Both the position numbers and the translations under genes were made by a program. Below are positions 15,860 to 61,886 of a stretch of 64,000 bases of DNA, one piece after another. The stretch spans positions 3,518,175-3,582,174 of the forward strand of contig NZ_CP036425.1 of NCBI RefSeq assembly GCF_007747445.1. The letters are read 5' to 3'. This DNA is from Poriferisphaera corsica (GTDB lineage Bacteria; Planctomycetota; Phycisphaerae; Phycisphaerales; Phycisphaeraceae). The notes under the pieces are model-generated. The model did no database searches. It was given only the letters and a program-made list of their open reading frames with translations, and had not been told where the DNA came from. How positions within the stretch are numbered: position 1 is the first letter of the stretch; every line of letters starts with the position of its first letter.

Positions 15860-16243
15860 CCTGTTGCGTCACACATCACTTCCAACCCCGCCCCTGACCT
15901 GCAGCACACTCATCACATTCACTTACCATCAAGCCCCGCACCGCCGGTGCGGAGGTGTCCTACAACCAATCCTCAATTGCCTGCAACCTTGTTACGTCAC
16001 ACCCATCTTCCAACCCCGCCCCTGACCTGCAGCGCACTCATCGCATGTACTCAACATCAAGCCCCGCACCGCCGGTGCGGGGGTGTCCTACAACCACACC
16101 TCAATTGCCTGCAACCTTGTTACGTCACACCCATCTTCCAACCCCGTCCCCGACCTGCAGCGCATTGATCACATGTACTCAACATCAAGCCCCGCACCGC
16201 CGGTGCGGGGGTGTCCTACAATCAATCCTCAATTGCCTGCAAC
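15860..16243. repeat. tandem array of three 128-bp units, each with a family A palindrome
   Basis: Three units of exactly 128 bases (384 in all): 15860-15987, 15988-16115, 16116-16243. Each contains TTCCAACCCCG, then GACCTGCAGC, then the palindrome CAAGCCCCGCACC GCC GGTGCGG, then CTCAATTGCCTGCAAC. Units two and three differ by about ten bases; unit one is more diverged, and its palindrome has one broken pair. The unit is not a multiple of three and no protein frame is preserved. It lies just after the murJ stop. Confidence 0.93.
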
Positions 16244-16295
16244 CACCCCATACCCCAACATCAACACCAAAAACCACAACCTCTTTCACTCCTCC

Positions 16296-17153
16296 TCACT
16301 CCTCGCCCCAAACCTCCTTCGTCCTTTCAACATACGCCTCAAAATCTCTCGGCTTCCTTCCCGTCACAATCTCCACCTCACGTGACAAATAATCTTCCGA
16401 CCCATGCGAGATATCCGTCTCCATCCCCGCCAATACGCGCGCATATGCCTCCGCCATCCCCAACACCTCAAACCGCTTCGCCATCTCTCCCTCGCTCAGC
16501 CGCACATGCTCAATCCGCTTCCCAATCGCACCACCAATCAACCCCGCAACCTCATCCAAACTCAAACATTTAGGCCCATTCAAAATCAACTCTCGATTCA
16601 TCGCCGCCTCACCTATTAACGCCTCACACCCCACCGCCGCAATATCTTCCACGTCAATATAACCCACCTTCCCATCACCCATCGCGCTATAAATCCGTCC
16701 CTCCTCAACAATCGTTTGGCAATAATGTTGCTCCGAAAAATTTTGCATAAACCACGTCGGCCGCAACACCGCCCACTCCTCCACATACTTCTCTAAAAAC
16801 GCATGCACGCCCCCCATCATCGGCCCACCCTTCACGATCGGCGACGCGCTCACCAACACAAACCGCTTCACCCCTTCCTCCACCGCCCGCTCAACAAACG
16901 GCCCCACCAAATCCAGCGGCTCTGCCACTTCCTCCGGCCCAACCAAATACGCCGCATCCACCCCTTCAATCACCTCCCCAAACGTCCCCTCATCATGCCA
17001 ATCAAACCTTATCCCCTTCACATGATCACCACATCCTTCCACCCCTACCCCACTTCGCGACGCAACCCGCACACTATACCCACGTTCTGATAACTGCCGC
17101 GCTAATCGCCGCCCAATCTTACCCGTACCACCTGTCAGCAAAATATCGCCCAT
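16296..17153 (-). CDS. NmrA-like NAD(P)-binding oxidoreductase
   Basis: An atypical short-chain dehydrogenase of 285 residues. The Rossmann loop is LLTGGTGKIGRRLARQLSER at the N-terminus; the mid part has VKRFVLVSASPIVKGGP and VLRPTWFMQNFSEQHY, a motif common in NmrA-type and festuclavine-dehydrogenase-like proteins, and YIDVEDIAAVG follows. The normal Tyr-x3-Lys of classical SDRs is not seen. Such proteins are NADPH-dependent reductases or redox sensors; substrate unknown. The ATG at 17153 is preferred to an in-frame GTG at 17171 since GGAG lies 8 bases before it. It is isolated between two repeat-bearing stretches. Confidence 0.8.
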   Translation of the reverse strand: MGDILLTGGTGKIGRRLARQLSERGYSVRVASRSGVGVEGCGDHVKGIRFDWHDEGTFGEVIEGVDAAYLVGPEEVAEPLDLVGPFVERAVEEGVKRFVLVSASPIVKGGPMMGGVHAFLEKYVEEWAVLRPTWFMQNFSEQHYCQTIVEEGRIYSAMGDGKVGYIDVEDIAAVGCEALIGEAAMNRELILNGPKCLSLDEVAGLIGGAIGKRIEHVRLSEGEMAKRFEVLGMAEAYARVLAGMETDISHGSEDYLSREVEIVTGRKPRDFEAYVERTKEVWGEE

Positions 17154-17356
17154 GACATAATCTCCATTCACAAAACCGCCCCTACTTCATTCGTCACAAC
17201 CGTCCACTCAATATTAAAACCCACCTCCTCACGATTCCACCCTATGCCCGATCAGCCAGCAAGCACGCAAGTCTTTTTACACCCTCCAACACAACCCTCT
17301 TTCAAGCCCGCACCAATCGCCTGCAACCCTACCTTTCCTCAACAAACGGCTCACTC

Positions 17357-17386
17357 CAAGCCCGCCACCGCTGGTGGCGGGTTGTC
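17357..17386 (+). repeat. family A palindrome copy
   Basis: CAAG, arm CCCGCCACC, centre GCT, arm GGTGGCGGG, then TTGTC. The stem is perfect, but its inner bases differ from the copies in the tandem array. The associated box TTAATCGCCTACAAC follows at 17401-17415. Confidence 0.85.
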
Positions 17387-17590
17387 CTGCAGCCCAACAC
17401 TTAATCGCCTACAACTTCCCCTCCACCTCCCAACATCTCCCTCAACAACCCGCAGCAAAAAAAAACATACCGCGCGCACAAAACCAAAAACTCCCTCAAA
17501 AACCGCCTCGTTTTTCATCATTCACGAAGCGTTTTTCACCAAAACTTACCCTTTCTCACACATAACGCGCCCATTTTCTGAAAAAACGCA

Positions 17591-17631
17591 TACGGGTAAA
17601 TCACTAATTCGCCACATCTGTGCGCACAAAC
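17591..17631 (+). repeat. repeat family D copy 1
   Basis: A 41-base block starting TACGGGTAAATCACTAA and ending GTGCGCACAAAC. A block of the same length with matching ends occurs inverted at 60617-60657. Confidence 0.65.
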
Positions 17632-17783
17632 CCGCCACACCATTTTCATAACTTCTTACTTTTCACATCCAACTTCACAATTTCAATCATCCACTCGACT
17701 AACCCGCGAATAGAACCATCTAAAAACCAACCTTAAATCAAAATTTTAAAACCAACTTTCAAACAAAACGTGCGCGCCATCAA

Positions 17784-17817
17784 CAAAAAAACACCCGCAA
17801 ACATTCGTTCACGGGTG
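17784..17817 (-). terminator. terminator of the lipoprotein gene
   Basis: On the minus strand: CACCCG, a 14-nt loop, CGGGTG, then a run of seven T. It begins 33 bases after the stop codon. Confidence 0.8.
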
Positions 17818-17849
17818 CGTTCATTCAAATCAAATTTCACAGCCAACAA

Positions 17850-18695
17850 TTACTTCTCGTCAGCCACGATCCCCTTCTCACCGTCTGCCGCATGATCTTC
17901 AACATCCGCCGTCGTTTCCGCAACATCCGAAACATCAGTTTCAGAGGCCTCAGCATTGATCGCCGCATGATTCTCTTGATCTTTCACCGCCTCAGCATCA
18001 TCTGCTTCATGCTTGATCGATTCTGGCTCAGGCTGACGCATGATCTTAATCGGCAACTGGGTTGAAAACACCGCGCCGGTATCTGCTTGCCGCAATGTGA
18101 CCCGCAGCGTTCCATCAAACGTGCCCATCGGCATATCCGATGGCAAATCGGCCCGCAATGTGTAATGCGTCCCAGTAAAATTCGAGCGATACGATTCGCG
18201 CCACTCTTTCGCATTAATACGCTTCTCAACGATCATCCGCGGCTCACCATCATCGGGAATCAGAACAACTTGCATCGTTCCAACACCCGCGACCGGCAAC
18301 ATCCGACCAAACTGATCTTCCGTCTGCACATACGCAACAACCTGCGTATCGCCGACCGCACCATCATCGCTGATCGAACCGCTGTACCTGCCAAGTTTAA
18401 TACGGCTCAGAACCGGCGGCTCAGCGCCGGGAATCGGCTCCTTGCCCGCATTGATCTGCTGTCGAAGCGCTTTCGCTTCCGATATACGCAGTTCCAACTG
18501 CTCGTCCAGTTCCTTCACCTGCTTACGCAGTTCAAGGTTCTCTTCGATGACTTCGCTGACTTTCTTGTCACCGCCGCCGATCTTCACGCTACAGCCGGAC
18601 AATATCACCGCGGCACACAACAGCATCAGCACACTCATCATCGATCGATGACTGAAAATCATACGTTGATCATGTTGCGTATTCACGCTGGTCAT
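17850..18695 (-). CDS. coiled-coil lipoprotein of unknown function
   Basis: A 281-residue protein with a lipoprotein signal: a hydrophobic stretch MMSVLMLLCAAVILSGC, the lipobox LSGC making Cys the first mature residue. A heptad-like coiled coil follows (VSEVIEENLELRKQVKELDE and on, about 45-80). The middle (about 95-215) looks like an all-beta domain (VVAYVQTEDQFGRMLPVAGV, LRADLPSDMPMGTFDGTLRV), and the C-terminus is an acidic Glu/Asp/Ala tail. AAAGGGA precedes the ATG. It would be anchored in the outer or inner membrane facing the periplasm. Transcribed in the same direction as clpP, 79 bases downstream of it, so perhaps cotranscribed. No family recognised. Confidence 0.75.
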   Translation of the reverse strand: MTSVNTQHDQRMIFSHRSMMSVLMLLCAAVILSGCSVKIGGGDKKVSEVIEENLELRKQVKELDEQLELRISEAKALRQQINAGKEPIPGAEPPVLSRIKLGRYSGSISDDGAVGDTQVVAYVQTEDQFGRMLPVAGVGTMQVVLIPDDGEPRMIVEKRINAKEWRESYRSNFTGTHYTLRADLPSDMPMGTFDGTLRVTLRQADTGAVFSTQLPIKIMRQPEPESIKHEADDAEAVKDQENHAAINAEASETDVSDVAETTADVEDHAADGEKGIVADEK

Positions 18696-18774
18696 GCGTC
18701 GTCCCTTTATTCAGCTGCATCGCAACTGATGATCGCTTTATAGCCTAATGACGCCTATTCGCGTCTTTTGGCAA

Positions 18775-19377
18775 TTAGTCGTTGTCAGTTGGCAAGTGCT
18801 TGAGAACATCGTCAGCACAACCATACTCAACAGCGGCTTGAGCGTCGAGCCATTTGTCGCGTTCACAATCACGCGCGATGGTGTCGAAGTCCTGGCCGGT
18901 GTGATCGCACATCACGTTGTACAGGCGTTCACGTGTCTTGAGCATTTCAGCGGCCTGAATCGACAGGTCGGTCGCTTGTCCTTCACTTACGCCGCCGAGT
19001 AGTGGCTGGTGAAGCAGCACGCGGCTGTTGGGGAGCATGTGCCGAGAACCCTTGGCGCCAGCCATGAATAGGACGGAGCCCATTGAGGCGGCGAGGCCGA
19101 TGCAGTAGGTCTGGACTTTGGGTCGGATGAACTGCATGGTGTCATAGACACCCATACCAGCGGTCACAGACCCACCGGGACTGTTGACGTAGAAGTGGAT
19201 GTCGCTGTTGGGGTCTTCGTTGGAAAGGAACAAAAGCTGGGCGACAACAAGGTTCGCGGTTTCATCGGTCACGGCGCCGCCGAGGAAAATAATTCGGTCT
19301 TTGAGCAGACGTGAATAGATGTCGTAAACCCGCTCGCCGCGGCCGGTCTTTTCGATAACTGTGGGTACCAGAGGCAT
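18775..19377 (-). CDS. clpP: ATP-dependent Clp protease proteolytic subunit ClpP
   Basis: A 200-residue serine protease subunit that forms the barrel chamber working with ClpX or ClpA. The catalytic triad is visible: S98 in [10 protein letters not shown]123 in NSRVLLHQP and D174 in ARDCERDKW. The oxyanion and fold motifs [20 protein letters not shown] and [19 protein letters not shown] are normal. Length is typical. The usual clpP-clpX pair is not present: no ATPase gene follows; a lipoprotein gene lies downstream instead. Confidence 0.97.
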
Positions 19378-19799
19378 TCTCGTTCCTTTTATGCGATTTT
19401 TGGTATCAGCTTCTTTGTGTATTTATCCATTTAAATTGGATGCGGCCCGATATTATTGGCCATTGATCCAAGACTGTCGTGATTATCGATTGCGTTCTTG
19501 CGGACTATCAACAAGTGATGCGGGCGCATGATCGCCGAAAATCTCCAAACAGATATTGATATATCGGCCAGTATGATACACCGTCCCAATATTATCTGCC
19601 GGATCAGGCAAGGTCCTGATAATTTAACAACATCCCTGTCTACTAATCTATTTCTTGCGGATGCGAAAGTGGCTTCAATCTAAATATGAAAAAACCTGCA
19701 TATGGCAGGTTTTTGTGCTTTATTTTCCTCATTCAGCAGGAGAAGCGTTCATTGGATTCGCTGGTGAGTGATTGCATATTCTTTTGACGCTTATTCGCT
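19378..19799. other. intergenic region upstream of clpP
   Basis: About 420 bases. It should carry the clpP promoter; a short sequence GATATTGATATATCGGCC at 19552-19569 is AT-rich and partly palindromic. The terminator at 19690-19714 closes the remnant to its right. Nothing else recognised. Confidence 0.4.
19690..19714 (-). terminator. terminator behind the pseudopilin remnant
   Basis: Stem AACCTGC / GCAGGTT with a 5-nt loop. On the minus strand six T follow. T also follow on the + strand, so it may act both ways. Confidence 0.75.
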
Positions 19800-20057
19800 T
19801 TAAGGTTTTGGGTTGCGATTGGCCTCGATGCAGTCCTGCCAAGTCATGCCGGATTGTGTTTTGATGTTTTCGAGTTCCTGTATGAAATCATCGGGATCAA
19901 ATTTTTCGACATGGCCATCAACAAATAAATTTGAAATATTTTGATTCTTATTGTTGGTTCATCGTAACGGATTGAGATCTGAGTGGGAATCATCAATGCG
20001 TGGAATCTTATGAAAGAAGATATGTGGTGAACGGCGATTGATGCTGGGATCGATATA
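19800..20057 (-). pseudogene. C-terminal remnant of a pseudopilin-like gene with one in-frame TGA
   Basis: One minus-strand frame of 86 codons runs from 20057 to the TAA at 19800-19802, broken only by a TGA at 19959-19961. After the stop it reads NQNISNLFVDGHVEKFDPDD, the H-x-DG-type end of DUF1559-like pseudopilins, and ends SGMTWQDCIEANRNPKP. That tail closely matches GGMTWQDCIEATRNPKPW in the 765-codon frame at 24468. Before the TGA it reads SINRRSPHIFFHKIPRID, plausible as the same domain. There is no start codon or prepilin helix, because the upstream part is occupied by the terminator of the glycosidase gene. A dead fragment of a duplicated gene is the simplest reading. Confidence 0.72.
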
Positions 20058-20104
20058 AAAAGTAAGGTGACCGGCACAGGGTGGATATGCCGATCACCTA
20101 CTTT
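20056..20104 (-). terminator. terminator of the GH71/99-like gene
   Basis: Long imperfect hairpin: 16-17 bases from AAGTAGGTGATCGGCA to TGCCGGTCACCTTACTT on the minus strand, one bulged base, 11-nt loop, followed by TTT. It lies about 56 bases after the stop. Confidence 0.8.
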
Positions 20105-20159
20105 ATTTATGGTTTAGGATAAAGCTCGCGACAGCTCGTATTGCTGAGCTTTTCTTGAG

Positions 20160-21410
20160 TTAGTTCTTGAGCAGTTTTGATTGTTCTGCTTTAGGGAACT
20201 CAGCTTTTTGCTGCGGAGTCATGTTGTTGATGAACTCCTGCAACGGTGCGCGATTGTCTTTGAGATCGACGGGGCGACCGGTTTGGTTGCTCCACCATTT
20301 TTCGATGGCGTCAAGGTAGTCGAAGCCAAACTCGCGGGAGGGCTCGATGGCGGTAGCTTCTTCCCAATCGTTCCAAGTCATGAGTTGGATGAGTTCGGGG
20401 TTGCCTTCACTTGCGCGGGACATGGTGTATTCGAGGATATCGTTGCCATTGCGTTCGAGAACACGGGGACCACCACCCCAACCCCAGACGTTGGTTGTAT
20501 CGAAGCCGGGACAAATGACGGTCATGAAGAAATCAAGTTTGTTTTGAGCTTTGAGGTTGTTAGCGGTTTGACTGAAATGCTTGAAGTCCTGATCCCAATG
20601 ATCGCGGTTTGGCTTGAACCACATGAATGCAGATTGAAGCGGGCCGTGAAGGTCGGGGCGGTCGAGGTTTTGACGGCAGAAGTAGAGGTTGTTATTGAGT
20701 GAGGTGTAGATCTGTTGCCATTCATCGGCGAGGATCTGTCGCGGGCCGAGGTCATCTTCGCCCCAGTAATTGAATTGCATGACGAAGGGCTTGTTGTTTC
20801 GTTTGAGGTAAGCGGGGTGGGTGCCGTAATTGGTGAGGATGTAGTCGAGGTCGGCAGTTGCGGTCTTGACGATCTCGCTGCGAGATTTGGGGTCACGGTA
20901 TGGAGCCCAATTGATTTTCTCTTCGTAACAGATGGCGATTTTGAAATCGAGGTTTTCTGCTTCTTCGAGGAGAATTGGGATGATGCGATCGGAGTCGGGG
21001 GTATCGGGGCCGTACCAGATGACGACGAAAGCTTTTACGCCGATAGCTTGTGCGGTTTTGATGTGGTAACGGATGACAGAGCGATCGTACGAACTGTAGG
21101 GGCCGATGGCGGGGTAGTAGACGGATGAGATTTGGCGTTGGCCGTTATCTAACTTGGTGTTAGGGTCACGGCGATGAGCGGGATCATCCCAGCGCCAGTG
21201 TTGCCAAATTTTGTTGCTGGGCTGATTTTCGGGGGTTACTGCGAACCAGGGCATGTAGTGAGCGATGAGATGCGGGCCGTTGCCGGCGACATTCCACTCT
21301 GCCTTGTTTTGTAGGGTTTGTGCGTGTAGTGAGGTTGTGAGGAGCGTGAGGGCGAGGCTGATGATGATTGTCAGAGAGGGGATTGGGTACTGCTTCAATG
21401 TGGGCCTCAT
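20160..21410 (-). CDS. secreted GH71/GH99-like glycosidase
   Basis: A 416-residue exported protein with a signal peptide (SLTIIISLALTLLTTSLHAQ). The mature part starts GPHLIAHYMPWFAV and shows KAFVVIWYGPD, KIAICYEEKINW, KPFVMQFNYWG and LIQLMTWNDWEEATAIEPS, the last being the closing strand of the (beta/alpha)8 barrel in GH71/GH99-type proteins (endo-mannosidases and alpha-glucanases). The Glu residues of EEK and WEEAT are candidate catalytic sites. The ATG overlaps the TGA of the pseudopilin gene as ATGA, so the two are translationally coupled. Probably a polysaccharide-degrading member of the LacI cassette. The precise family is uncertain. Confidence 0.8.
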   Translation of the reverse strand: MRPTLKQYPIPSLTIIISLALTLLTTSLHAQTLQNKAEWNVAGNGPHLIAHYMPWFAVTPENQPSNKIWQHWRWDDPAHRRDPNTKLDNGQRQISSVYYPAIGPYSSYDRSVIRYHIKTAQAIGVKAFVVIWYGPDTPDSDRIIPILLEEAENLDFKIAICYEEKINWAPYRDPKSRSEIVKTATADLDYILTNYGTHPAYLKRNNKPFVMQFNYWGEDDLGPRQILADEWQQIYTSLNNNLYFCRQNLDRPDLHGPLQSAFMWFKPNRDHWDQDFKHFSQTANNLKAQNKLDFFMTVICPGFDTTNVWGWGGGPRVLERNGNDILEYTMSRASEGNPELIQLMTWNDWEEATAIEPSREFGFDYLDAIEKWWSNQTGRPVDLKDNRAPLQEFINNMTPQQKAEFPKAEQSKLLKN

Positions 21411-22132
21411 TTCCATTTCCAGTGATCGCCGGTGTCGTTGTTGTATGGGGTGTCGCCACGGAACTTGTCGACTTCATCGAATTGGAGGAATTCGACGTGG
21501 ACATCGGAGAAGCCGTAGTTGCCGCCGCGATCGGGGTGGACTTTACCGGGGAGGAAATCCATGCCTTCGTTCTCGGCGATGCCGACTTTGGTTGCTGAGC
21601 CTTCGATGCCGGGACGGTCGTAGATTTCACCGATCATGAAGACGTGAAGCGGAATGTTCTCGAATTTTTCTGTACCGAGATCGTTGTAGGTCACGCCGAC
21701 TGCGGTGTAGTTAGGCCAAGGTGTTTTGTAGCCATTGTCGGAGAGCCAGACGTGGTTCCACTTCATGGAGTTGACGCCGTAGGACCGGTTTTGAATGTCG
21801 ATGAGATTGTCACGACGGTTGACATCATCACTGGGGCATTCAAAAACTTCGCCGCTGCCGAGTAGGTCTTGATCGAGCATAAATTTTGACCAGTCGATGT
21901 AATCGCCGTCATCGATCAGGTTCATAGGAGGGAGGTGTCCCTCGTGATTTTCGCTGTAGATGAACAGAGCAGTCATGACGTTGCGGATGTTTGAGCCACA
22001 GGCGATTTGCTGGGCGGTTCTACGTGCGGCGCCGAGGGCGGGCAAAAGGATACCGATCAGCAATGCAATGATTGATATAACTACGAGAAGTTCAATTAGG
22101 GTGAAGCCTTTGTTACGGCGGATAAATTTCAT
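21407..22132 (-). CDS. type II pseudopilin-like protein (prepilin N-terminus, DxHVE end)
   Basis: A 241-residue protein starting MKFIRRNKGFTLIELLVVIS: prepilin peptidase site G/FTLIE with the Glu at +5, then a hydrophobic helix ending GILLPALGAARRTAQQIACG. The C-terminal part has the family's DG-like end in YGFSDVHVEFLQF, close to the H-x9-DG motif common in planctomycete pseudopilins. After cleavage by a prepilin peptidase such proteins are inserted in the inner membrane or built into short pseudopili of type II secretion-like machines; these large planctomycete families have no proven role. Overlaps the glycosidase by ATGA and lies 200 bases after the PEP-CTERM gene. Confidence 0.9.
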   Translation of the reverse strand: MKFIRRNKGFTLIELLVVISIIALLIGILLPALGAARRTAQQIACGSNIRNVMTALFIYSENHEGHLPPMNLIDDGDYIDWSKFMLDQDLLGSGEVFECPSDDVNRRDNLIDIQNRSYGVNSMKWNHVWLSDNGYKTPWPNYTAVGVTYNDLGTEKFENIPLHVFMIGEIYDRPGIEGSATKVGIAENEGMDFLPGKVHPDRGGNYGFSDVHVEFLQFDEVDKFRGDTPYNNDTGDHWKWK

Positions 22133-22332
22133 CGACGCACTCCCTGCATTAGATAGGACATATTGTCATGTAAAAAAGACGCGTGGTCACGGCTCTTTCG
22201 AGCGAAGATCGAAAAAAATCGATAAGGCTCTGTGTTGAATCTCAAAGCCGCAACCACCCGTCCAGGCTGCAAAATAAGGTGTGAAATGATGGTGTGATAC
22301 AAATGAATGTTGGCTATATCACGTTAGTCATA

Positions 22333-22905
22333 TCACGAACTGCGACGTCGCAGCATCAACAACCCGCCAGCACCGAGAAGCAGCATGGAAGCAGGCTCGG
22401 GTACGGCTTGCGCAGAAATTTGATCGAAGGTGTATGAGGCTTCGGCGGCGGCCCAAGGCAAGATACGGATCTGCAGGACGTAGCTTGCGGCGTTTGCGGG
22501 AAGAGTGCCGATGGCGACATCGAAATTGATGGGCGTTTCGGCGTTTGTATCGGGTAGGACGAGTGATTGACCGACATAATCACCGGCGGCATCGAAGTAG
22601 ATGGCGTTGATGTTGATGTAGTCGTTGTCTGCGGGCTCGTGAGCGGTGATGGTGACGAGTGAATCGGTGAGTGAGATTTTAGCGCCGCCAAGATCGCTCC
22701 ATGTGATGCCTGAATCTGTGGATGCACCAGCAGATTTACTGAAGACAACTTGGCCGGAGCCGTTGTCAGCAGCGGATGCGGCACCAAAAGCGGCGCTGAA
22801 CATATCCGCATTATCCATGTTGTCGATGACTGCGGCGTTTACACCTGTTGTCATCAACGCTCCGATTGATAAAACACCCATTAATTTTTTACTATTCTTC
22901 AACAT
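22333..22905 (-). CDS. PEP-CTERM sorting domain protein
   Basis: A 190-residue exported protein. Start at the ATG 22905, 8 bases after GGAGG. A signal peptide (KLMGVLSIGALMTTGVNAA) is followed by a small beta-rich domain (VVFSKSAGASTDSGITWSDL, SLTDSLVTITAHEPADNDYI), then VPEPASMLLLGAGGLLMLRR, a textbook PEP-CTERM signal: PEP, transmembrane helix, Arg cluster. An exosortase would cut it and anchor or release the protein. Function of the domain unknown; the pattern of a glycan-binding jelly roll is possible. It lies between the LacI regulator and the pseudopilin on the same strand, so probably in the same operon. Confidence 0.92.
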   Translation of the reverse strand: MLKNSKKLMGVLSIGALMTTGVNAAVIDNMDNADMFSAAFGAASAADNGSGQVVFSKSAGASTDSGITWSDLGGAKISLTDSLVTITAHEPADNDYININAIYFDAAGDYVGQSLVLPDTNAETPINFDVAIGTLPANAASYVLQIRILPWAAAEASYTFDQISAQAVPEPASMLLLGAGGLLMLRRRSS

Positions 22906-22961
22906 CAACCAATCCTCCGTTTTCGTGTTTGGTTTTTTGAAATGATCCTTAATTCGCTTCG

Positions 22962-23984: not shown

Positions 23985-24119
23985 TACAAACTCCATTAAC
24001 TTCATCCCCCCCCTTTTTATCACTTTTGAGTCATCCCAATGACCCAAAAGATTTCCCTGCCCTATCAACCACTGCGGCCCGACTCTTTGATCGACCTGAC
24101 AGCATATTTCCAAGTCTTA

Positions 24120-24175
24120 TGAAATATTTCACCGTATTATAACAGCACATAAATATGATGCAATGAAATATTTCA
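24120..24175. promoter_or_regulatory. twin palindromic operator upstream of the LacI-type gene
   Basis: The perfect 12-base palindrome TGAAATATTTCA occurs at 24120-24131 and again at 24164-24175, with 44 bases from start to start, about four helical turns. Two identical palindromes in phase, ahead of a LacI-type gene, fit an autoregulated operator with looping or cooperative binding. The sequence between is AT-rich and probably contains the promoter. Confidence 0.75.
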
Positions 24176-24327
24176 TTATATTAAGTTTCTTGTATCTCTT
24201 TACGCCACAGCGGTTTACCCTGCCTGCTTATCCAAATTAGGTTATTTTAGCGCAAATTGCGTGGTTATTTGCTACAAATTTCCAATAAGCTGGATTAAGC
24301 ATTTGCACATTTACAGGTTTGCTGTGA

Positions 24328-24361: not shown

Positions 24362-24376
24362 AGTGATTGTTGTCAG

Positions 24377-24398
24377 TAATGATGCAAACAGCTCTAGA
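24377..24398 (+). repeat. intergenic repeat family C copy
   Basis: TAATGATGCAAACAGCTCTAGA, matching 33334-33355 at 20 of 22 bases. Confidence 0.7.
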
Positions 24399-48525: not shown

Positions 48526-48847
48526 GATAACCACCTAACACTCGCCTTCTCAAGCCTCGCACCGCTGGTGCGGGGGTGTCATCCCATCCAATGCCACCCA
48601 CTTTCCATCCATCCCCCCGATCACCCCGATCATCCCTCACCTTTCCCCATTTCTGCTAATTTCCGCCTCCATCACCCCTCTTCTAGCAATCTCCCTTGCA
48701 TCCAACCCACACAAGTGCAAAATAGACCTGACCTTGTGATTGAAATAAATACGAATCACCTACGTCATACTAAACGGATACAGGGCATACACCTGTCCTA
48801 TATCCATTCGTCCCGGGCCACATCAACGGTTTTTCCAAGAGGTTGTC
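48526..48847. other. intergenic region upstream of the FHA-GspE gene
   Basis: About 320 bases. Contains a family A palindrome at 48551-48580 and CCC-rich sequence after it. The GspE-like gene has AGAGG 7 bases before its ATG. No other feature. Confidence 0.5.
48551..48580 (+). repeat. family A palindrome copy
   Basis: CAAG, CCTCGCACC, GCT, GGTGCGGGG, GTGTC. One T-G pair in the stem. Confidence 0.85.
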
Positions 48848-51707: not shown

Positions 51708-51737
51708 CAAGCCCGCCACCGCTGGTGGCAGGGTGTT
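51708..51737 (+). repeat. family A palindrome copy
   Basis: CAAG, CCCGCCACC, GCT, GGTGGCAGG, GTGTT. One C-A mismatch against the copy at 17357. Confidence 0.8.
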
Positions 51738-52364: not shown

Positions 52365-52717
52365 ACTATACAATCCCCCCCCACTTTCGTCCTGCCCCCG
52401 TAAGCCAACCCCCTCCCCTCGGAAGTAGGACCATCGCAAAAGCGTTCACAAGCCCGCACGCTCCGTGTGTGGGATATCATCACAACCTCATCCTCATTTA
52501 AACACACATTCACCAAGCCCTTCATCAAGCCCATGACCGCCGGTTATGGGAGAGGGGGGGGGGAGGGGGGGGTGTTGTTCAACTCATCGCTCACTCACAC
52601 ATGCAATCCCAAACTGAAACAACTCAACTCTCCGGGGAAGAGAGGGAAGGGAGCTTTTTGCACATAGGTACACCCCCCAGTTGCGGCAATCCCCCACCCC
52701 CTCCCATACTGGTAACC
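52365..52717. other. intergenic region with two palindromes and a broken G tract
   Basis: About 350 bases. Variant palindrome 52448-52477 (CAAGCCCGCACGCTCCGTG then TGTGGG), family A copy 52526-52550 followed directly by G10-A-G8 (52554-52572). The region between pyrE and the SDR gene carries both divergent promoters, none recognised. Confidence 0.6.
52526..52550 (+). repeat. family A palindrome copy next to a G tract
   Basis: CAAG, CCCATGACC, GCC, GGTTATGGG; one G-U pair. The normal GGTGTC tail is missing, replaced by AGA and the G tract. Confidence 0.8.
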
Positions 52718-53551: not shown

Positions 53552-53581
53552 GACAACTTTCACACACCCAATTCCCTCCAC

Positions 53582-53611
53582 CAAGCCCACGACCGCCGGT
53601 CGTGGGGTGTC
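53582..53611 (+). repeat. family A palindrome copy with trailing box
   Basis: CAAG, CCCACGACC, GCC, GGTCGTGGG, GTGTC, perfect stem. The box TTCAATCGCCTGCAAC follows at 53623-53638, as in the tandem array. Confidence 0.88.
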
Positions 53612-53762
53612 TTCAAATACCCTTCAATCGCCTGCAACACCACCTCTTCCCTCCCCTTCTTCGCTTGCATCATCAGTCCACAATCCCACATCCAAAACCA
53701 TCCTGCCCTAATCACCCATTAGACATCCTTTTTCGAGTACAACCCATCAAACCGTCCTTCAT

Positions 53763-55308: not shown

Positions 55309-55459
55309 CGAAATACCCTCGGAAAAAGATAGAAATCAATCTCCCCACATCATACCAATAGCCCATCCGCTTGCCCTCCCCACATCAAAACCAATCCCCA
55401 GCATTCCTAGCACCAGTATGAGCAACTCACATAAACTTCCCCGAGGAGAGGAGGGGGGA

Positions 55460-56011
55460 TTAGTCACAACACCCTTGCAACAAGTTCCCACACTTCGGAC
55501 AATAAAATGCCTGATTTTTTTCCACACCAGCAACGTTACACATCGGGCAGACAACCGCCGGGTCTAACCCATGCTTAGCCTCACCCTCTCTCTTATCGTC
55601 TCTCTTCTTGCACATCTGCTTTTCTTTACCTTCCCCTCTTCCGCACCCACTACCACACCCCTCAAACTCTGCATCCAATCCCGCTACCTCATCCGCCGCT
55701 TTACCAAACTTCGCCCACAATTCGCTCGCATCAATCAACGGTTCTGGCCCCGCCGGCCCATCATACTGACCCGGCCACATCTCAGGATGTTCATCCGTCG
55801 AACAATGCATCAAGGGATCGTCTTCTCTCACTTCACTGGTCTCCTGCTTTTTCACCTCTTCTTCATCATGACGTACCTCCCCATTTCCCCCCAACGTCTC
55901 TCCTCCTTTTAATCCTTCCCCCTGCCCTGCATCAACGGCACCAAAACCGTCCTTCCCTTCATCCTCAAACCGTTCTGGTTTCGCTCTAGCAATCATCGCT
56001 ATCCCAATCAT
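55460..56011 (-). CDS. C-terminal zinc-ribbon protein of unknown function
   Basis: A 183-residue hydrophilic, acidic protein. The last 40 residues carry VCPMCNVAGVEKNQAFYCPK CGNLLQGCCD, a CxxC...CxxC zinc ribbon with extra Cys, and the middle has GCGSGCGRGEGKEKQMCKKR. The N-terminal 120 residues are low-complexity Glu/Gly-rich. It follows the next gene upstream by 18 bases, in one operon. The coding case rests on the ribbon and the continuous frame in a C-rich region; no signal peptide. A + strand frame of 113 codons opposite was judged a shadow. Confidence 0.6.
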   Translation of the reverse strand: MIGIAMIARAKPERFEDEGKDGFGAVDAGQGEGLKGGETLGGNGEVRHDEEEVKKQETSEVREDDPLMHCSTDEHPEMWPGQYDGPAGPEPLIDASELWAKFGKAADEVAGLDAEFEGCGSGCGRGEGKEKQMCKKRDDKREGEAKHGLDPAVVCPMCNVAGVEKNQAFYCPKCGNLLQGCCD

Positions 56012-56029
56012 CTATTCGTCAGTTAGCCA

Positions 56030-56725
56030 CTATGCCGTCTTCTTCCCCAAAGGCACAAACCCCAGCCCCAGCGCCAACGCCACCAACACCACCGTGAAAA
56101 ATACAGGCACCTGCATAATCAACACCGGCCGCGCCACCATGATCGCGATCCAACCCGCCAACAACACATACCTCACCTTCACCAACTGCCCCAACTGCCA
56201 CGGCAACGCATACCCCTCTGCCGTCTTCCGTGGCAACAACTGCGTTTCAATCACACCCAACACAATCACACCAATCACCAGCGACGATGCCAACCCGACC
56301 AAATGAAACAAATACTTTAGCTCCGCCTCCCGCGCCGCCAGTTCAAGCTTACTCATCTGCTGACTCATCACCTGCGGCACCATCCGATCCACAACCCCCT
56401 CAAGATCACTCACACTGCTCCCCTCACCCTGCTTCGCGCTAAGCTGCTCTCGCAACTGCGCCCGCACCTGTTCCTCAGCCGCCTCCTCGTTCGCCTTCAA
56501 CCCCTGATACCGCAAAACCTCTTGTGTGTTCCCAATAAACAGATCGTTATAAACCTTCGGCGACACCTGCTTCAAACCTCCCGGGCCCAGCGCCAAACCA
56601 ATCAGCAACCCCGCAATCAGAACATACAGATCGCGATGATCCCCAAACGGCAGCCTCCGCAGCAACTCATCCTTCATCACAGACTTCCCCTGCCCCCGCG
56701 CGCCTTGTCCTTGTGTATCGCTCAT
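56030..56725 (-). CDS. four-helix membrane protein of unknown function
   Basis: A 231-residue protein from ATG 56725 (GAGG 5 bases before); an ATG at 56740 is too close to the next signal. A hydrophilic start, one helix (LYVLIAGLLIGLALGPGGL), a 90-residue helical outer part rich in Glu, Gln and Lys (EEAAEEQVRAQLREQLSAKQ), then three helices (YLFHLVGLASSLVIGVIVLG, VRYVLLAGWIAIMVARPVLI, VPVFFTVVLVALALGLGFVP). Operon with the zinc-ribbon gene. No family recognised. Confidence 0.72.
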   Translation of the reverse strand: MSDTQGQGARGQGKSVMKDELLRRLPFGDHRDLYVLIAGLLIGLALGPGGLKQVSPKVYNDLFIGNTQEVLRYQGLKANEEAAEEQVRAQLREQLSAKQGEGSSVSDLEGVVDRMVPQVMSQQMSKLELAAREAELKYLFHLVGLASSLVIGVIVLGVIETQLLPRKTAEGYALPWQLGQLVKVRYVLLAGWIAIMVARPVLIMQVPVFFTVVLVALALGLGFVPLGKKTA

Positions 56726-56903
56726 TGCCGCCTCATCCATCCTTAGATTTATTTCTCTAGATCCATAACGTCCTTCGCCCCATCATAACCCTCTCAACCC
56801 TTATTAAACAGCCTTTTTTACCCCCCTTAAATATCCACCCTCGTTTCTTAGCAACAATAACCAATAACCCAATCCGCAAGATTGTTTATAACTCAAATTC
56901 GCC

Positions 56904-56934
56904 TCAAGCCTATGACCACCGGTCATGGGGTGTC
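56904..56934 (+). repeat. family A palindrome copy
   Basis: CAAG, CCTATGACC, ACC, GGTCATGGG, GTGTC; one T-G pair. The central base triplet is ACC, not GCC or GCT. Confidence 0.82.
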
Positions 56935-56977
56935 TCCTCCCAAACAATGAGCATATGCCTGCAAAACCCAAACACAC

Positions 56978-57009
56978 AAAAACAGAGCCCGGCTACAAGC
57001 CGAACTCTG
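56978..57009 (-). terminator. terminator of the 137-residue protein gene
   Basis: 12-base stem CAGAGTTCGGCT / AGCCGGGCTCTG with two T-G pairs and 3-nt loop, then five T on the minus strand. Confidence 0.85.
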
Positions 57010-57140
57010 ATTAACGACATCATCAATTTCTTCCCCCGCTATTCTGACACAAACTCCTGTGCCACGCACAACAACATCCTTCCCGCATTCCTTTGCCCTC
57101 TCCCTCCAACAGAGAGAAAACAATGTCCGTAACGCAAATC

Positions 57141-57554
57141 TTATCCAAAAAACTCAAGCGGATTCGTTCGGTCCGACCAGTTTCCTTCTGCAATCGCATC
57201 ACATCTCACGCGTTCCAGAATCCGCGATAGCTCATCTGCCAATCGATCGATTCTGTCCGAATTCAACATGTCACGCCGCGACAGAATATCTCCCGTCTCA
57301 TACGCCACATAATCATGATCCATCAAGACACGGCGGATCGCCTGTTTATGCTGACTCATCGCCACATGATGCGACTGCCGCACCATCTGTAACAATTCTG
57401 GCAACGAGTTCATCAACGTACAACGTGTACCGTCCATACGTCTGCTACCGCCCCGCATCAACTCGCCAACCAGCCCTTCATGGGCTTCACTCTCATGCTC
57501 AAAGAGCCTGCGGAGTTTTTCCAAATCGCCTGTCATTTCATATGTGCCCAGCAT
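57141..57554 (-). CDS. small soluble helical protein of unknown function
   Basis: A 137-residue protein. Start at 57554, the ATG behind AGGGG; a TTG 18 bases upstream is less likely. Predicted mostly helical and charged: GDLEKLRRLFEHESEAHEGL, RCTLMNSLPELLQMVRQSHH, DRIDRLADELSRILERVRCD. No Cys pair, signal peptide or catalytic motif. A strong terminator follows at a distance of 130 bases. It stands alone. No family recognised. Confidence 0.65.
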   Translation of the reverse strand: MLGTYEMTGDLEKLRRLFEHESEAHEGLVGELMRGGSRRMDGTRCTLMNSLPELLQMVRQSHHVAMSQHKQAIRRVLMDHDYVAYETGDILSRRDMLNSDRIDRLADELSRILERVRCDAIAEGNWSDRTNPLEFFG

Positions 57555-58069
57555 GCTAAAAGCCCCTTTCAATCTCTGATTCGCTGCCGCTCAATCCAGC
57601 AGCCACGCATACGTTTTCCGTTTTCCAACTCTCATTACGTAATCTTAGAATAGCCGTACGTGCAATCTACTATCTGTCACAAAACGGATATAAGTACTTA
57701 CCTCAAGCCGCTAACGTATCAGTCAACACCGACACGACTTAACGACATCAATTTGTATACAGGCCAAACAAACCACCCAAATAAACCCTTACGCCGCCCT
57801 CTTTCAACAACCAATCCGCACCATCTCTCCCCTTCAGCAGCTTTATCCTTTGAACAAAACCGCTCGATATCTCATCAACAATCAACCCGATCGACCATCA
57901 CTTAACATCTATAAAATACGGATTTCGTACAACAAAACAATCCATATTCTCCCTCCCTAACAGCCCATTAGATCCAGTTGCATCATCACGTACCACATGT
58001 CCTGCGAAACAATCTGAAGCAGGCTCATGTGAGAAGCGTTTTTTACACAACGACCCACTGGTTAGCGAA

Positions 58070-58097
58070 GCAAGTCATTTCGTAGGACGCGCTAGAG
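58070..58097 (+). repeat. intergenic repeat family C copy
   Basis: GCAAGTCATTTCGTAGGACG then CGCTAGAG; GCAAGTCATTT is shared with the inverted copy at 10873-10900. Confidence 0.45.
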
Positions 58098-58451
58098 CCG
58101 CGTACATCGCACTCTAATCTCATCTCTGGCCGCTAGGCTCCACAACAACTTGTATGAATAATCACAAGACTTGATCTACAACCGGAGCAGCCTATCAGCG
58201 AACAATATCTAAAATCAGCGTCATCGGCCCAATGCTCAACATATGCATCATTTCGCAAGACGCCTTAAAGTGGAACTTAGATGACCACTTTGTTTTATTA
58301 TCAGCTTTTCCCTTCAAACCGCAACAAAAAATGACAAACCTTTTTAACAATGCTCACGAACCACACCTCAAAACGGCCCATGATCCGCATTCTAAACACA
58401 TCCACCACGCATCACCCATACCCCAGCATCATCTTGCCGCACTTCCCCAAT

Positions 58452-58477
58452 AAAAAAGCCCGACCAAAGCCGAGCTT
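58452..58477 (-). terminator. terminator of the anti-sigma-like gene
   Basis: Stem AAGCTCGGC / GTCGGGCTT (two wobble pairs), 4-nt loop, T run on the minus strand. Confidence 0.82.
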
Positions 58478-58529
58478 CTCATCATTCTAATTCACTTTTA
58501 CTTCATCTAATCGACGATTAGGTCCATCA

Positions 58530-59633
58530 TCAAGGCACCAAGAACACATCACCAGTCGATGTCGGCGTTTCACGCCCCGTATAAACCTCAACTCCTGATG
58601 CGCCCCAGATATTATCCAGCGTACCTGCCCCATCCCCTTCTTCCTGCATCACATACGGCGACGTCAGCCATTCAACCACGCCTCCCGCTTGCAAAATATT
58701 CTGACCACGCGAATCATGCTGACGTGACGATGCGCTTGGCTCAACATCCTCATCAAACTTCAGCGCGCCCGTCTTATCATCAAACACAAACCGCGGATTC
58801 TTGTCCGCCAAGATCACCATCTTCGGTAAATCATCCGCTCTCGCAGGCTTCTTCCCATACATATTCTGATACGAATACGACACCGCACGCGGCGAATTCC
58901 AATCAAAATGACCCGCCGTCATCGTGCCGTCCGCCGGAGCATTTGCATTACTCACGCAATTCAACTCACGCGGCTGCACATACTTACCGCGAGCCAACAA
59001 ATACAGATGCGCCGAGTTTGAAGTAATCTCACCCTGATCGCGTCCCGATTTGCCGACGTTCCACCAAAGTGAACCCGGGCTCGCTGATAAGGCAGGCAAA
59101 GCGCCCGCGTTATCCGTTGCATACTGACCAAACGCGCCGCCCAAACCTTGCAGGTTCGAAGCACATGCCGCCTGATAAGCCGTCTGCTGCTGATTGTTAA
59201 TCGCTGGGATCAGAAGCGATGCACCGATGACAAACACCGCTGCCGCACTCACGATCTGACGCCATGAAATGCCAAGCGTACGACGTGGCTGCGACAGCAT
59301 ATCAATCTGTGCCGCGAAGCGTTCACGCTGTTTTGCCTGCTCGATAAATGCAAGTGTATTCACCGTCAGATCTTCCGACACATCGTCGGCAGGATACTGA
59401 CCCAATACATTCAACAAGCCCGCCATTTTCTCCGCACGCTCTTTCGAACCAGCCGGCATCGGGCCGTCTGTGATGCTGAACCCCACTTCAGCATCGCTCT
59501 GACCATCAGCCGCCTTGTCCGCTGCGTTGCGATTGGCCAACAATGCATCTAATACATCGCCGTCCTGCTCGCTGAGGCGGTAAACCTTGATATCCTCAGG
59601 CGCTCGGTTTGAATTGTCTGGTGTCTCTGGCAT
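58530..59633 (-). CDS. putative anti-sigma factor with a pseudopilin-like periplasmic domain
   Basis: A 367-residue membrane protein. The first 120 residues are hydrophilic (cytoplasmic), a helix follows (IVSAAAVFVIGASLLIPAIN), and the outer domain begins QTAYQAACASNLQGLGGAFG with QYATDNAGALP, which is the DUF1559-like pattern directly after a pseudopilin helix. The position, 21 bases after an ECF sigma gene, and the soluble-helix-outer layout point to an anti-sigma factor; no ZAS Cys/His motif is visible, however. Start at ATG 59633, or GTG 59642. It may sense the state of the envelope or secretion system through the pseudopilin-like part. Role inferred from context. Confidence 0.68.
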   Translation of the reverse strand: MPETPDNSNRAPEDIKVYRLSEQDGDVLDALLANRNAADKAADGQSDAEVGFSITDGPMPAGSKERAEKMAGLLNVLGQYPADDVSEDLTVNTLAFIEQAKQRERFAAQIDMLSQPRRTLGISWRQIVSAAAVFVIGASLLIPAINNQQQTAYQAACASNLQGLGGAFGQYATDNAGALPALSASPGSLWWNVGKSGRDQGEITSNSAHLYLLARGKYVQPRELNCVSNANAPADGTMTAGHFDWNSPRAVSYSYQNMYGKKPARADDLPKMVILADKNPRFVFDDKTGALKFDEDVEPSASSRQHDSRGQNILQAGGVVEWLTSPYVMQEEGDGAGTLDNIWGASGVEVYTGRETPTSTGDVFLVP

Positions 59634-59654
59634 ATTGCTCACGACTCTCGTCCC

Positions 59655-60281
59655 CTAACCTCGTTGTTTATAACGTACCTTCCATAACTGAGAGAATGTT
59701 CCCACTGCTGAATGCAATCTCGACTTAACCGTCCCCAGGGGGATCGCTAGAATTTCCGCGATCTCTTTGTAAGCAAGCTGGTTAAAGTACGCCAGCGTCA
59801 AGACTTCCCGTAAATGGTCCGGCATCGATTGCACGAGCTCACGCACCAATTCGCTTTGTTCTGCGTCCAGTGCGTTCTGATCCGGGATTGGGATATCTGC
59901 TTCGAGCAGATCCACAAATGACCGGCTGTCATCCCCGCTCGAATCAATCATCGCGGAGAGTGAGGCGGCTTGTCGCCTGTTATTCTTACGTAAGTAATCC
60001 CGTGCTTTGTTCGCGGCAATTGTAAAAAGCCACGGTTTAAATCGTTTGGTTATGTCGAATGTATCGGCTGAGAGGTGTATTTGGAGGAAGGCTTCCTGGA
60101 AGATGTCCTCGGCGGCGGCGCGGTTGCCGCAGAATCGGATGAGGAAATGGAAGAGTTCCTGGCGATAGCGCTCGATAAGTTCTTCGAAGCAATGGGTTTG
60201 CCCGGATCTGTAGTTTGCAACCAATTGCTCGTCTGTGAGTTTCTCGGCCAATCGTGGTTCCTCAAGAGCGCACTGCGTCAT
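59655..60281 (-). CDS. ECF RNA polymerase sigma factor
   Basis: A 208-residue sigma factor of the extracytoplasmic function type. Region 2: FEELIERYRQELFHFLIRFC with AAEDIFQEAFLQIHLS and FKPWLFTIAANKARDYLRKN; a linker; region 4: SMPDHLREVLTLAYFNQLAY KEIAEILAIPLGTVKSRLHS. Start at ATG 60281; no good ribosome binding site; the frame is open 39 codons further up. The 12-21-base gap to the membrane protein downstream suggests one operon with its anti-sigma factor. Targets unknown. Confidence 0.92.
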   Translation of the reverse strand: MTQCALEEPRLAEKLTDEQLVANYRSGQTHCFEELIERYRQELFHFLIRFCGNRAAAEDIFQEAFLQIHLSADTFDITKRFKPWLFTIAANKARDYLRKNNRRQAASLSAMIDSSGDDSRSFVDLLEADIPIPDQNALDAEQSELVRELVQSMPDHLREVLTLAYFNQLAYKEIAEILAIPLGTVKSRLHSAVGTFSQLWKVRYKQRG

Positions 60282-60616
60282 GGTGTGATTGTACGGGATG
60301 TTACAGGATAATTGGGGTGCAATGCGAGTATTTGAGGCTGATTGTGGAATCAAAACAGTGCTTATGGCTGCTTGGCTCATATTGCGTCCCGAAATCATGG
60401 TTGGTGTTCACACTGGCGAGAAGGCCTGAACTGATCAATGGCGATGAGCCGACTTGGCTGCCTGACCTGCCAGTTGTACGTATTTGCCCGAAGGCGGGTT
60501 CATGGAAATCGCATCAGAAAGATGAAGATTTGGGTACACATAGGCAACAGATTTAGCGCGTTAAACTGGGTGTTTTTGTGCGCACAAGAGCGTTTCATAA
60601 CAGGGGTGCGCGGCGC

Positions 60617-60657
60617 GTTTGTGCGCACGAATCTTCGAATTTAGTGACTTACCCGTA
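60617..60657 (-). repeat. repeat family D copy 2
   Basis: On the minus strand starts TACGGGTAAGTCACTAAATT and ends GTGCGCACAAAC; 41 bases, as long as the + strand copy at 17591-17631. The middle differs. Confidence 0.65.
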
Positions 60658-60905
60658 ACCTAAACGTGCGAAGAATGAACAGAAACAAACGAACTTTGAC
60701 AATTATTAGTTGATAACCACGCGCTAACTGATTTTTCCGCGCGAGTGGGAAAAGCGTAAAACGCGCGTTTGTGCGCATCCTAAAAGATTTTCAGTCTCAA
60801 GATGGCGTAACGTGCTATGCGGCATGAAGAGGTGAGTTGGTCATTATTGATGACATTTTATAATCACGTCACTGCAAACGATCACATCTGTGCTGGTCTG
60901 ATGTA

Positions 60906-60941
60906 AGCTGATTGGCGCGCCGCGAAGTGTCGCGGCGGCTA
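60906..60941. repeat. family B GC-rich palindrome, copy 2
   Basis: AGCTGATTGGCGCGCCGCGA then AGTGTCGCGGCGGCTA, differing from the 24328-24361 copy at two or three positions. Confidence 0.75.
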
Positions 60942-61065
60942 CTTTTGTTTCGCCAGAACATCATGCAAGTTGCGTTGTTCGCGGGTCAAGAATTGGGAAG
61001 GAACATGGTAAGATATGTGTCGTCGCTTTGCGTTACAGTATCTATCTATTGATTAGTCTTCATGC

Positions 61066-61806
61066 ATGATTTCTGGGCCAGCTATGAGTTTTACTTTGAT
61101 ATTTGTGATATGCGGTATTGTTTTGGGCCTGGCTATCGGCATGGTTCCGGTCTACTTGACGAATCGGTATCAACGCCGAAAGGCGATGGGGGAGATATCA
61201 GTTGAGAAGCAGAAGAAGAATACGGTGACTTATCACGTTGGATTTGGCGTGTGGTTTATGGGGTTGGGTTTACTGCAACTGAATTCGAGACGGGGCGAAG
61301 AAATACCGTGGTGGGTTTGGATGTGGATTGCTAGCGCACTCATGTATTTTATCGCAGCGTACCGGTTGTATGTGAAGGAAGCGAAGCCGATCGAGTACGA
61401 TCGGGTTTATAAGAATGATCCGACAAAATGCGGGAAGTGTGGGTATGACGTGGTGCATATTCAGTCGGCGTCGTGCCCGGAGTGTGGGTGGACGTTGCCG
61501 AATTTGGATGAAGTGAGATTGCAGTCGCATGATGTTTGGTGTTGGTGGAAAAAGGGGAACTGGCAGATTGTTTATCTGGAAGAGGATATGCGGAAGAAAG
61601 CGCAGCGAGGATTTTATGTGACCGTAGTCATGGAAGTAATCGTGGCATGTGTTATTGGATTATGGTTACTAAGCAAGGAAGGCGGTTGGCATTCATTCAG
61701 TGTTCCAGTAATTTTTCTAGTGTTTCTGTCGCTGTTGTCCATTCATAAATTTATCAATGTGCATCGTATTCGAAAGTATTATGAGCGAGTGGATGGAGAA
61801 AAATGA
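61066..61806 (+). CDS. zinc-ribbon membrane protein, paralog 3
   Basis: A 246-residue protein. Helices: LIFVICGIVLGLAIGMVPVY, then VGFGVWFMGLGLLQLN and WWVWMWIASALMYFIAAYRL, the zinc ribbon KCGKCGYDVVHIQSASCPEC GWTLP, the element DVWCWWKKGNWQIVYLEED, then two helices (TVVMEVIVACVIGLWLL, VIFLVFLSLLSIHKFINVHR). Shares layout and the linker element with the pair at 53763-55308, so a real family. Start at 61066 or 61084, no ribosome binding site. Isolated between repeats and the BCCT gene. Function unknown. Confidence 0.8.
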   Translation: MISGPAMSFTLIFVICGIVLGLAIGMVPVYLTNRYQRRKAMGEISVEKQKKNTVTYHVGFGVWFMGLGLLQLNSRRGEEIPWWVWMWIASALMYFIAAYRLYVKEAKPIEYDRVYKNDPTKCGKCGYDVVHIQSASCPECGWTLPNLDEVRLQSHDVWCWWKKGNWQIVYLEEDMRKKAQRGFYVTVVMEVIVACVIGLWLLSKEGGWHSFSVPVIFLVFLSLLSIHKFINVHRIRKYYERVDGEK

Positions 61807-61855
61807 AGTTGAAATATAAGATTGCGTTTTATTAGTGTTTGGTTGATGAGGTTGC

Positions 61856-61886
61856 AAACACCCCAGCACCGGCGGTGCTGGGTTTG
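61856..61886 (-). repeat. family A palindrome copy, inverted
   Basis: On the minus strand CAAA, CCCAGCACC, GCC, GGTGCTGGG, GTGTTT; perfect 9-base stem. It lies 20 bases from a G22 tract. Confidence 0.85.

Follow-up and report, generated by a model that had tools for sequence, protein, structure and literature searches.

Repetitive extragenic palindromes (REPs) with REP-associated tyrosine transposases (RAYTs) are a known kind of system, and to our knowledge what is understood of hairpin recognition by RAYTs rests on a few in vitro cases from Proteobacteria. Here we describe a family of short palindromes that occurs ten times in a window of 64,000 nucleotides from Poriferisphaera corsica (contig NZ_CP036425.1, positions 3,518,175 to 3,582,174; window coordinates count from its first letter) and 160 times in the chromosome. 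From the covariation of its stems, its copy number, a RAYT gene with flanking copies and the same arrangement of gene plus hairpin in many relatives across the phylum, all read from sequence, we consider it very probable that these palindromes are a non-autonomous REP family, multiplied by the RAYT encoded at genome position 3329508-3330050.

Among published kinds, TnpA-Y1 class 3 (Quentin et al. 2018, PMC6006769) comes nearest; the comparison with it, as with the other systems below, was made by published descriptions and motifs. These authors describe class 3 as proteins of 178 aa from Planctomycetes, with genes flanked by atypical hairpins that are sometimes present in high copy; it is an already known kind as well. 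The RAYT described here and its relatives resemble it in length (180 aa), extended N-terminal conservation, planctomycete distribution and flanking hairpins. The CnGA foot given for class 3 stands in 22 of the 72 feet before AGCCC in the relatives, both palindrome strands counted. The published tyrosine motif of class 3 is YV[VI][AENY]EQ (Y----Q), whereas here it is mostly Y-[IV]-x-x-H; the residues around HxH vary here instead of reading NHVH; and the foot of the P. corsica family is TCAAG with GGGTGT on the right side, rather than CnGA with GGGCTT.

Other described systems are less similar. GTAG-tagged REPs, served by group 2 and 3 RAYTs (PMC2817692, PMC3733652, Corneloup 2021 PMC8266576), are likewise short GC-rich palindromes whose RAYT gene is flanked by inverted copies, and lie between tandem or convergent genes with occasional intragenic copies, including copies in repair genes; the 8-bp perfect stem and 3-nt loop of the Stenotrophomonas maltophilia group 3 REP are similar to the structure found here. 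Preserved pairing in modified REPs was remarked on qualitatively in 2010 (Nunvar 2010, PMC2817692). By these accounts, the present family differs in having no GT(A/G)G head, nearly all copies solo, a 15-nt tail and another transposase subfamily. CGTC-tagged REPs and Rickettsia palindromic elements (RPEs) share stems of 8-9 bp and intragenic copies (PMC3733652), but the ends here are (T)CAAG and GGGTGT[T/C] without a CGTC tag, and CGTC repeats are reported there without a dedicated transposase, whereas this family has a candidate. In TIRtrons with their TIRYTs, inverted repeats likewise enclose the gene of a Y1 transposase, and some of these repeats are dispersed as well (PMC3733652), whereas each repeat of the present family is one short hairpin, and there are about 160 of them. 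No description of this consensus, or of a REP family in this group, was found among the top matches listed from an open-access library. Within that scope, what is new is the foot, solo units that carry a tail, covariation that has been measured, and a Y-x3-H transposase subfamily tied to AAGCC palindromes.

Palindrome copies and stem pairing

The ten copies located by a preliminary description of the window are all present, and they are all the matches to the pattern CAAGCC-N4-ACCRCYGGT-N4-GGGTG at up to three mismatches, against none in 100 shuffles (Table 1). Three of them (15930, 16058 and 16186) form one tandem array, so that the ten copies amount to about eight independent events. Further copies, for which a genome-wide search had been suggested, are numerous: in the whole chromosome (4,291,168 bases) the pattern occurs 160 times at up to two mismatches, 87 times forward and 73 times reverse, and a reversed-pattern control gave none. 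The 151 copies that were read in detail, in 499 kb of sequence, are spread over the entire chromosome (4 to 17 per sixteenth). Their orientation shows no clear replication-strand bias between the first and second halves of the record as numbered (45 plus and 29 minus versus 36 plus and 41 minus).

The inner stem bases (CGC, GCC, ATG, ACG, AGC) had been said to change on both arms together, and this is borne out in the ten window copies, two of which contain a T-G pair (48551, 56905) and one a C-A mismatch (51708). The covariation exceeds chance. Among 41 aligned copies (40 distinct), 98.6% of the cells of the nine stem pairs are standard-paired, compared with 82.6% in shuffles, and in the 40 distinct copies 61 cells are changed on both arms, against a shuffled mean of 17.1 and with none of 500 shuffles as high. 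The covariation score is 0.440, and at most 0.092 with the partners slid. Two further counts were not above shuffles, namely pairs changed on both sides (4 versus 3.9) and further pair types (9 versus 8.4).

The stem changes lie in the four inner pairs. Variation is slight at the outer end (CC/GG) and at the tip (ACC/GGT), a constancy that is favoured by the search pattern itself. The four inner positions are free in that pattern, and their pairing is therefore unbiased by the search. There are 38 inner-arm combinations in the 151 copies, mainly CACG (30), TGCC (24), CGCC (19), CATG (16) and CCGC (13), and all four inner pairs are perfect in 118 copies, against a mean of 20 with the arms shuffled; the other 33 have mismatched or G-T positions. 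G-T pairs do not significantly outnumber A-C mismatches, either in all 151 copies (23 versus 16, p = 0.34) or in exact copies (17 versus 9, p = 0.17), a result that singles out neither strand, nor RNA, as the object of selection. One copy at genome position 844578 (L071), missed by the pattern search and found by a covariance model, has about 11 nt in place of the 3-nt loop, with both arms still paired.

The foot CAAG is nearly fixed (C in 150, A in 151, A in 151 and G in 144 of the 151 copies) and is preceded by T in 115, the conserved block running from this T to GGGTGT[T/C]. The motif noticed earlier behind several copies, TCAAT[T/C]GCCTGCAAC, is real: at up to four mismatches it follows 54 of the 151 copies, against 0, 7 and 0 in controls, and in 53 of these 54 its offset from the 28-mer is +14 to +17. 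At up to two mismatches, 38 of its 47 matches in the 499 kb lie at this fixed place after a copy. Such spacing points to a larger unit of about 59 nt. Copies with a tail are found in each of the five most frequent stem classes, yet among the 28 copies whose left arm is TGCC just 3 have one. When three single copies were folded as single-stranded DNA, a 9-bp hairpin with a 3-nt loop was the main predicted fold.

The transposase gene and its relatives

A search of the genome for the Y1_Tnp domain led to two places, an open reading frame (ORF) of 180 residues and a fragment of 85 residues. The 180-residue ORF contains HAH (99-101), W144 and Y165 followed by I-K-R-H; a search of the Protein Data Bank (PDB) with this single sequence gave no match. 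Two palindromes of the family lie directly after its stop codon in inverted orientation. The outer-foot pattern CAAGCC-N17-GGGTG occurs at 117 places in the 499 kb, 116 of which are known copies, and the remaining one, at 3329449 on the minus strand, stands 31 nt before the start of this gene; by chance, 0.24 such matches are expected in all 499 kb, and about 1e-4 in the 100 nt around the gene. With the inverted pair after its stop and a degenerate, foot-only copy before its start, the gene has copies of the family on both sides, an arrangement known from RAYT genes. The comparison with RAYT-type transposases that had been proposed thus yielded an HUH/Y1 gene flanked by the same palindrome. 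By copy number and flanking gene, the palindromes are, in the broad sense, a REP element with a putative cognate RAYT.

Related proteins are widespread in the phylum. Matches to the RAYT at E 1e-3 or better were found in 34 of 61 genomes (its own and 60 relatives), and a scan of named genomes retained 80 of 167 relatives, 76 of the 80 labelled as planctomycetes by their submitters. Among the 76 oriented loci with full flanks, in a sample of 80 that includes loci of identical or closely related genomes, a strong hairpin lies within 250 nt of the gene in 28, compared with 2 of 72 and 5 of 75 in controls taken farther out. A palindrome common to both flanks was seen in 11 of the 80 loci, and 27 of 44 flanking hairpins have an AAGCC/GGCTT foot. 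Palindromes of the form AAGCCC...GGGCTT number a median of 29 where a genome matches the RAYT below 1e-10 (30 genomes, with P. corsica itself among them), against 8 in the 27 without, four genomes with weak matches being left out. This excess persists without the own genome (p = 1e-6) and in genomes at least 90% complete (p = 3e-5), in both cases with kinship uncorrected. The two such palindromes seen in the read stretches of the own genome resemble ordinary terminators. In relative G039, the 25 listed 28-mers have 15 cells with compensatory changes, 13 with mismatches and 2 with G-T pairs, indicating that pairing is kept less strictly there.

In 90 distinct homologs, two of them incomplete, the histidines of HxH are present in 88 and 89, the tryptophan in 89 and the tyrosine in 87; four positions beyond the tyrosine, 75 homologs have H and 8 have Q. 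The best match of the family profile to a solved structure is TnpA_REP (4er8, E 1.3e-4). At E 0.01 or better, which is not the curated cut-off, 47 of 73 homologs match the NCBIfam REP-transposase model and 12 the IS200 model; 35 of the 73 match Pfam Y1_Tnp. A structure was predicted for homolog L173, which is 44% identical to the RAYT and at E 0.01 matches neither a Pfam nor an NCBIfam model. The model (mean predicted local distance difference test score, pLDDT, 90.7) matches the IS608 transposase with Z 11.9 and a root-mean-square deviation (rmsd) of 2.5 over 105 residues, and TnpA_REP 4er8 with Z 10.9 and an rmsd of 3.5 over 126 residues, a tie given that matches within 1 Z count as equal. 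As modelled, L173 has the IS200/TnpA_REP fold.

None of 12 more distant paralogs that were read has the published class 3 tyrosine motif exactly. Three distant planctomycete Y1 transposase paralogs (L255, L256, L258) are flanked by other palindromes (CCGGGACCGG..., GGGTCGGCTATATAGCCGACCC), and several hairpin-transposase pairs may therefore coexist in the phylum.

Distribution and gene context

At up to one mismatch, the palindrome was found in only two of 250 other genomes (60 relatives and 198 from the phylum, 8 in both): the same-genus sister G001, with two copies, and the distant G199, with one 1-mismatch match. By gene calls from our own codon-usage heuristic rather than standard annotation, 140 of the 151 copies lie between genes, 7 overlap a gene and 4 lie at edges. 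The earlier statement that all the copies it listed are intergenic is upheld in the window, where none of the nine copies tested overlaps a gene call, but does not extend to the genome as a whole. Read in the direction of the copy, 53 intergenic copies lie between convergent genes, 50 are tandem sense, 25 tandem antisense and 12 divergent. Sense copies outnumber antisense ones (p = 0.005), and there are more copies in convergent gaps (34 expected) and fewer in divergent gaps (26 expected) than under the null, with the gap-length null drawn from stretches chosen around copies.

Six of the seven gene-overlapping copies lie in ORFs of more than 200 residues. Three are in one gene and in the same frame; its homolog in G001 (L172) matches a Pfam PD-(D/E)XK nuclease, and the gene may be AddB-like. 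This gene (L021/L069, genome 573126-576183) contains several in-frame composite insertions of the palindrome and other repeat units, and in the sister species a part of these other units seems to be present, without the palindrome. One copy lies in alanyl-tRNA synthetase (Pfam tRNA-synt_2c; L147, genome 2181377), and two lie in ORFs whose matches to ParB_N and to a terminase domain are weak and fall below the cut-off. REPs within recombination and repair genes have been described (Di Nocera 2013, PMC3733652).

Proposed origin and alternative explanations

The preliminary description had offered a REP-like mobile unit among several readings, and this option fits best with a high copy number, a mostly intergenic location, an expansion in one species and a RAYT gene flanked by copies. 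No result that the description had named as refuting its observation was obtained. In the mechanism that we propose, an element of about 28 to 59 nt would fold as a single-stranded DNA hairpin with the stem and loop given above, and the RAYT would bind the exposed hairpin. The pattern of fixed and free bases fits the published biochemistry, in which the role of the upper stem-loop for the Escherichia coli RAYT is described as structural and non-specific, and in which stem mismatches affected or almost eliminated cleavage in S. maltophilia (PMC8266576). We infer that the bases recognised by the RAYT are those of the 5' foot (T)CAAGCC and of the ACC-RCY-GGT tip, perhaps together with the 3' GGGTGT and the tail, and that the middle of the stem would merely have to be paired. 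It would then cut and join single strands, copies landing in exposed single-stranded DNA. The stem classes could have diversified among source copies because any middle sequence that still pairs would remain a substrate, and later copies would decay; the imperfect inner stems of 33 copies agree with this. Copies would persist mainly downstream of genes, where they may do little harm.

The strongest rival for the covariation itself is template switching at imperfect palindromes, which copies one arm onto the other and could also make paired changes; covariation would then be a mutational by-product, and the spread of the family unrelated to hairpin binding. The many perfectly paired classes, including the single-copy CTTG, CGAC and CGTC/GACG, agree with this, and palindrome correction would presumably yield a double change in one event. 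However, the 33 copies that retain mismatched or G-T positions indicate that such correction is inefficient, and the near-fixed foot and tip across classes, which mutation alone leaves unexplained, and the association with a RAYT also speak against it. We regard this explanation as unlikely.

Somewhat less likely still is that the palindromes are structured RNA elements or terminators at mRNA 3' ends, with pairing selected on the transcript. The location of 140 of the 147 placeable copies between genes, and the bias towards gene 3' ends and the sense direction, would suit this explanation. Nevertheless, a T-run directly follows the stem in just 1 of the 151 copies, which does not fit intrinsic terminators as the explanation. 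In a crude scan, sense terminator-like hairpins were found within 300 nt upstream of 36 copies and downstream of 9. The 25 tandem copies in antisense, the restriction to one species plus two sister copies among the genomes searched, and the position of copies around a transposase gene also argue against a role on the transcript. A scan of the window at Rfam gathering thresholds gave no match. Selection on an RNA structure, one of the options in the preliminary description, thus finds no support as the driver in the T-runs or in the non-significant G-T excess.

Recognition of the double-stranded palindrome by a dimeric host protein of nucleoid or partition type, for which copies had accumulated as functional sites, is very improbable. 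Dispersal over the whole chromosome and near-perfect dyad symmetry would be expected of such sites. Sites of dimeric DNA-binding proteins keep their bases, however, whereas the inner arm bases vary here while pairing holds; the foot is asymmetric, the tail one-sided and the palindrome nearly absent from the sister. Least probable of all is a spread by an IS200/IS605 transposase instead of the RAYT: such enzymes also use hairpins, and the 85-aa Y1_Tnp fragment at 580601 is a remnant of one, but the fragment is truncated, has no copy in its 1.5-kb flanks (nearest read copies at 574656 and 720825), and G001 has an IS200-type match of its own with just 2 palindromes at up to one mismatch.

Several observations weigh against a REP family mobilised by this RAYT. 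The RAYT alone is a weak member of its family, scoring 23.1 bits against Pfam Y1_Tnp, just above the cut-off of 23, and 17.5 bits against NCBIfam NF047646 (REP-associated tyrosine transposase), with a cut-off of 80; the structural evidence is for L173, a homolog, and not for the RAYT itself. The match before the gene keeps the foot with unpaired inner arms and is at best a decayed copy. At the threshold used, 48 of the 76 RAYT loci have no strong flanking hairpin, and the sister G001 has 35 AAGCCC...GGGCTT palindromes with no RAYT match, which means that this pattern can occur in the absence of a RAYT. RAYT systems usually have inverted doublets (REPINs, BIMEs), of which hardly any exist here: among the 151 copies, the only inverted pair less than 400 nt apart is that at the RAYT gene. 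Mobility is inferred from the sequences, and at the two sites compared with G001, alanyl-tRNA synthetase and the nuclease gene, no clean empty site was found. The copy in the synthetase replaces other sequence (net +6 nt versus G001), and in the nuclease gene the copy examined closely belongs to a composite insertion of about 170 nt that keeps the frame.

A more specific proposal, for which we would put the chances at about even, is that a single RAYT, belonging to a distinct subfamily of planctomycetes with mostly Y-x3-H, mobilises hairpins of at least ten perfectly paired classes as solo units of about 59 nt in place of REPIN doublets, reading only foot, tip and 3' tail, with the middle four pairs merely paired. 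If true, about 150 natural sequences would record a requirement for structure alone in a single-strand transposase. The natural covariation allows a prediction of the bases that the transposase reads and of those that have only to pair. The transposase subfamily extends across Planctomycetota, with a different foot and a different residue beside the catalytic tyrosine, and the named relatives supply material for tests of transposase-hairpin co-evolution. No large picture is changed, as the kind of system is already known.

Features of the window and other repeats

Table 1. Palindrome copies, tails and the RAYT gene (window coordinates unless marked as genome).
Feature	Position	Strand	Remarks
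REP copy, stem class CCGC	15930..15957	+	tandem copy 1
3' tail TCAATTGCCTGCAAC	15973..15987	+	of copy at 15930
REP copy, class CCGC	16058..16085	+	tandem copy 2 (128-nt period)
3' tail	16101..16115	+	of copy at 16058
REP copy, class CCGC	16186..16213	+	tandem copy 3
3' tail	16229..16243	+	of copy at 16186
Probable deletion derivative	17303..17327	+	truncated 5' foot CAAGCCCGCA fused to tail CCAATCGCCTGCAAC; orphan tail, genome 3535487
REP copy, class CGCC	17357..17384	+	1 mismatch
3' tail TTAATCGCCTACAAC	17401..17415	+	of copy at 17357
REP copy, class TCGC/GCGG	48551..48578	+	one T-G pair
REP copy, class CGCC/GGCA	51708..51735	+	one C-A mismatch
Degenerate REP copy, class CATG	52526..52553	+	3 mismatches, right foot lost, poly-G tract next
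REP copy, class CACG	53582..53609	+	30 nt past end of short-chain dehydrogenase ORF
3' tail TCAATCGCCTGCAAC	53624..53638	+	of copy at 53582
REP copy, class TATG/CATG	56905..56932	+	one T-G pair, ACC loop
REP copy, class CAGC	61859..61886	-	inverted, 1 mismatch
RAYT ORF, 180 aa	genome 3329508-3330050		188 kb before window

Long poly-G runs adjoin palindrome copies at window positions 61907-61928 and about 52555-52575. A second intergenic repeat, poly-C with CCCCCCTGTTCGT and then AACTTCCAANCCCGCCCYTGACYTGCAGCGCA, is found at 15879-15908, 16007-16036 and 16135-16164 and elsewhere in the genome, often upstream of palindromes; CCCCCCTGTTCGT has 24 exact matches in the 499 kb, against none for the reversed control. 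Further small repeats occur genome-wide (for example at L006, L028 and the 4073763 region), namely CTAATCATCGATTAG / CTAAY-N4-CATTAG and a hairpin AATAGCCGCCGCGAC... with 7 exact matches in the 499 kb.

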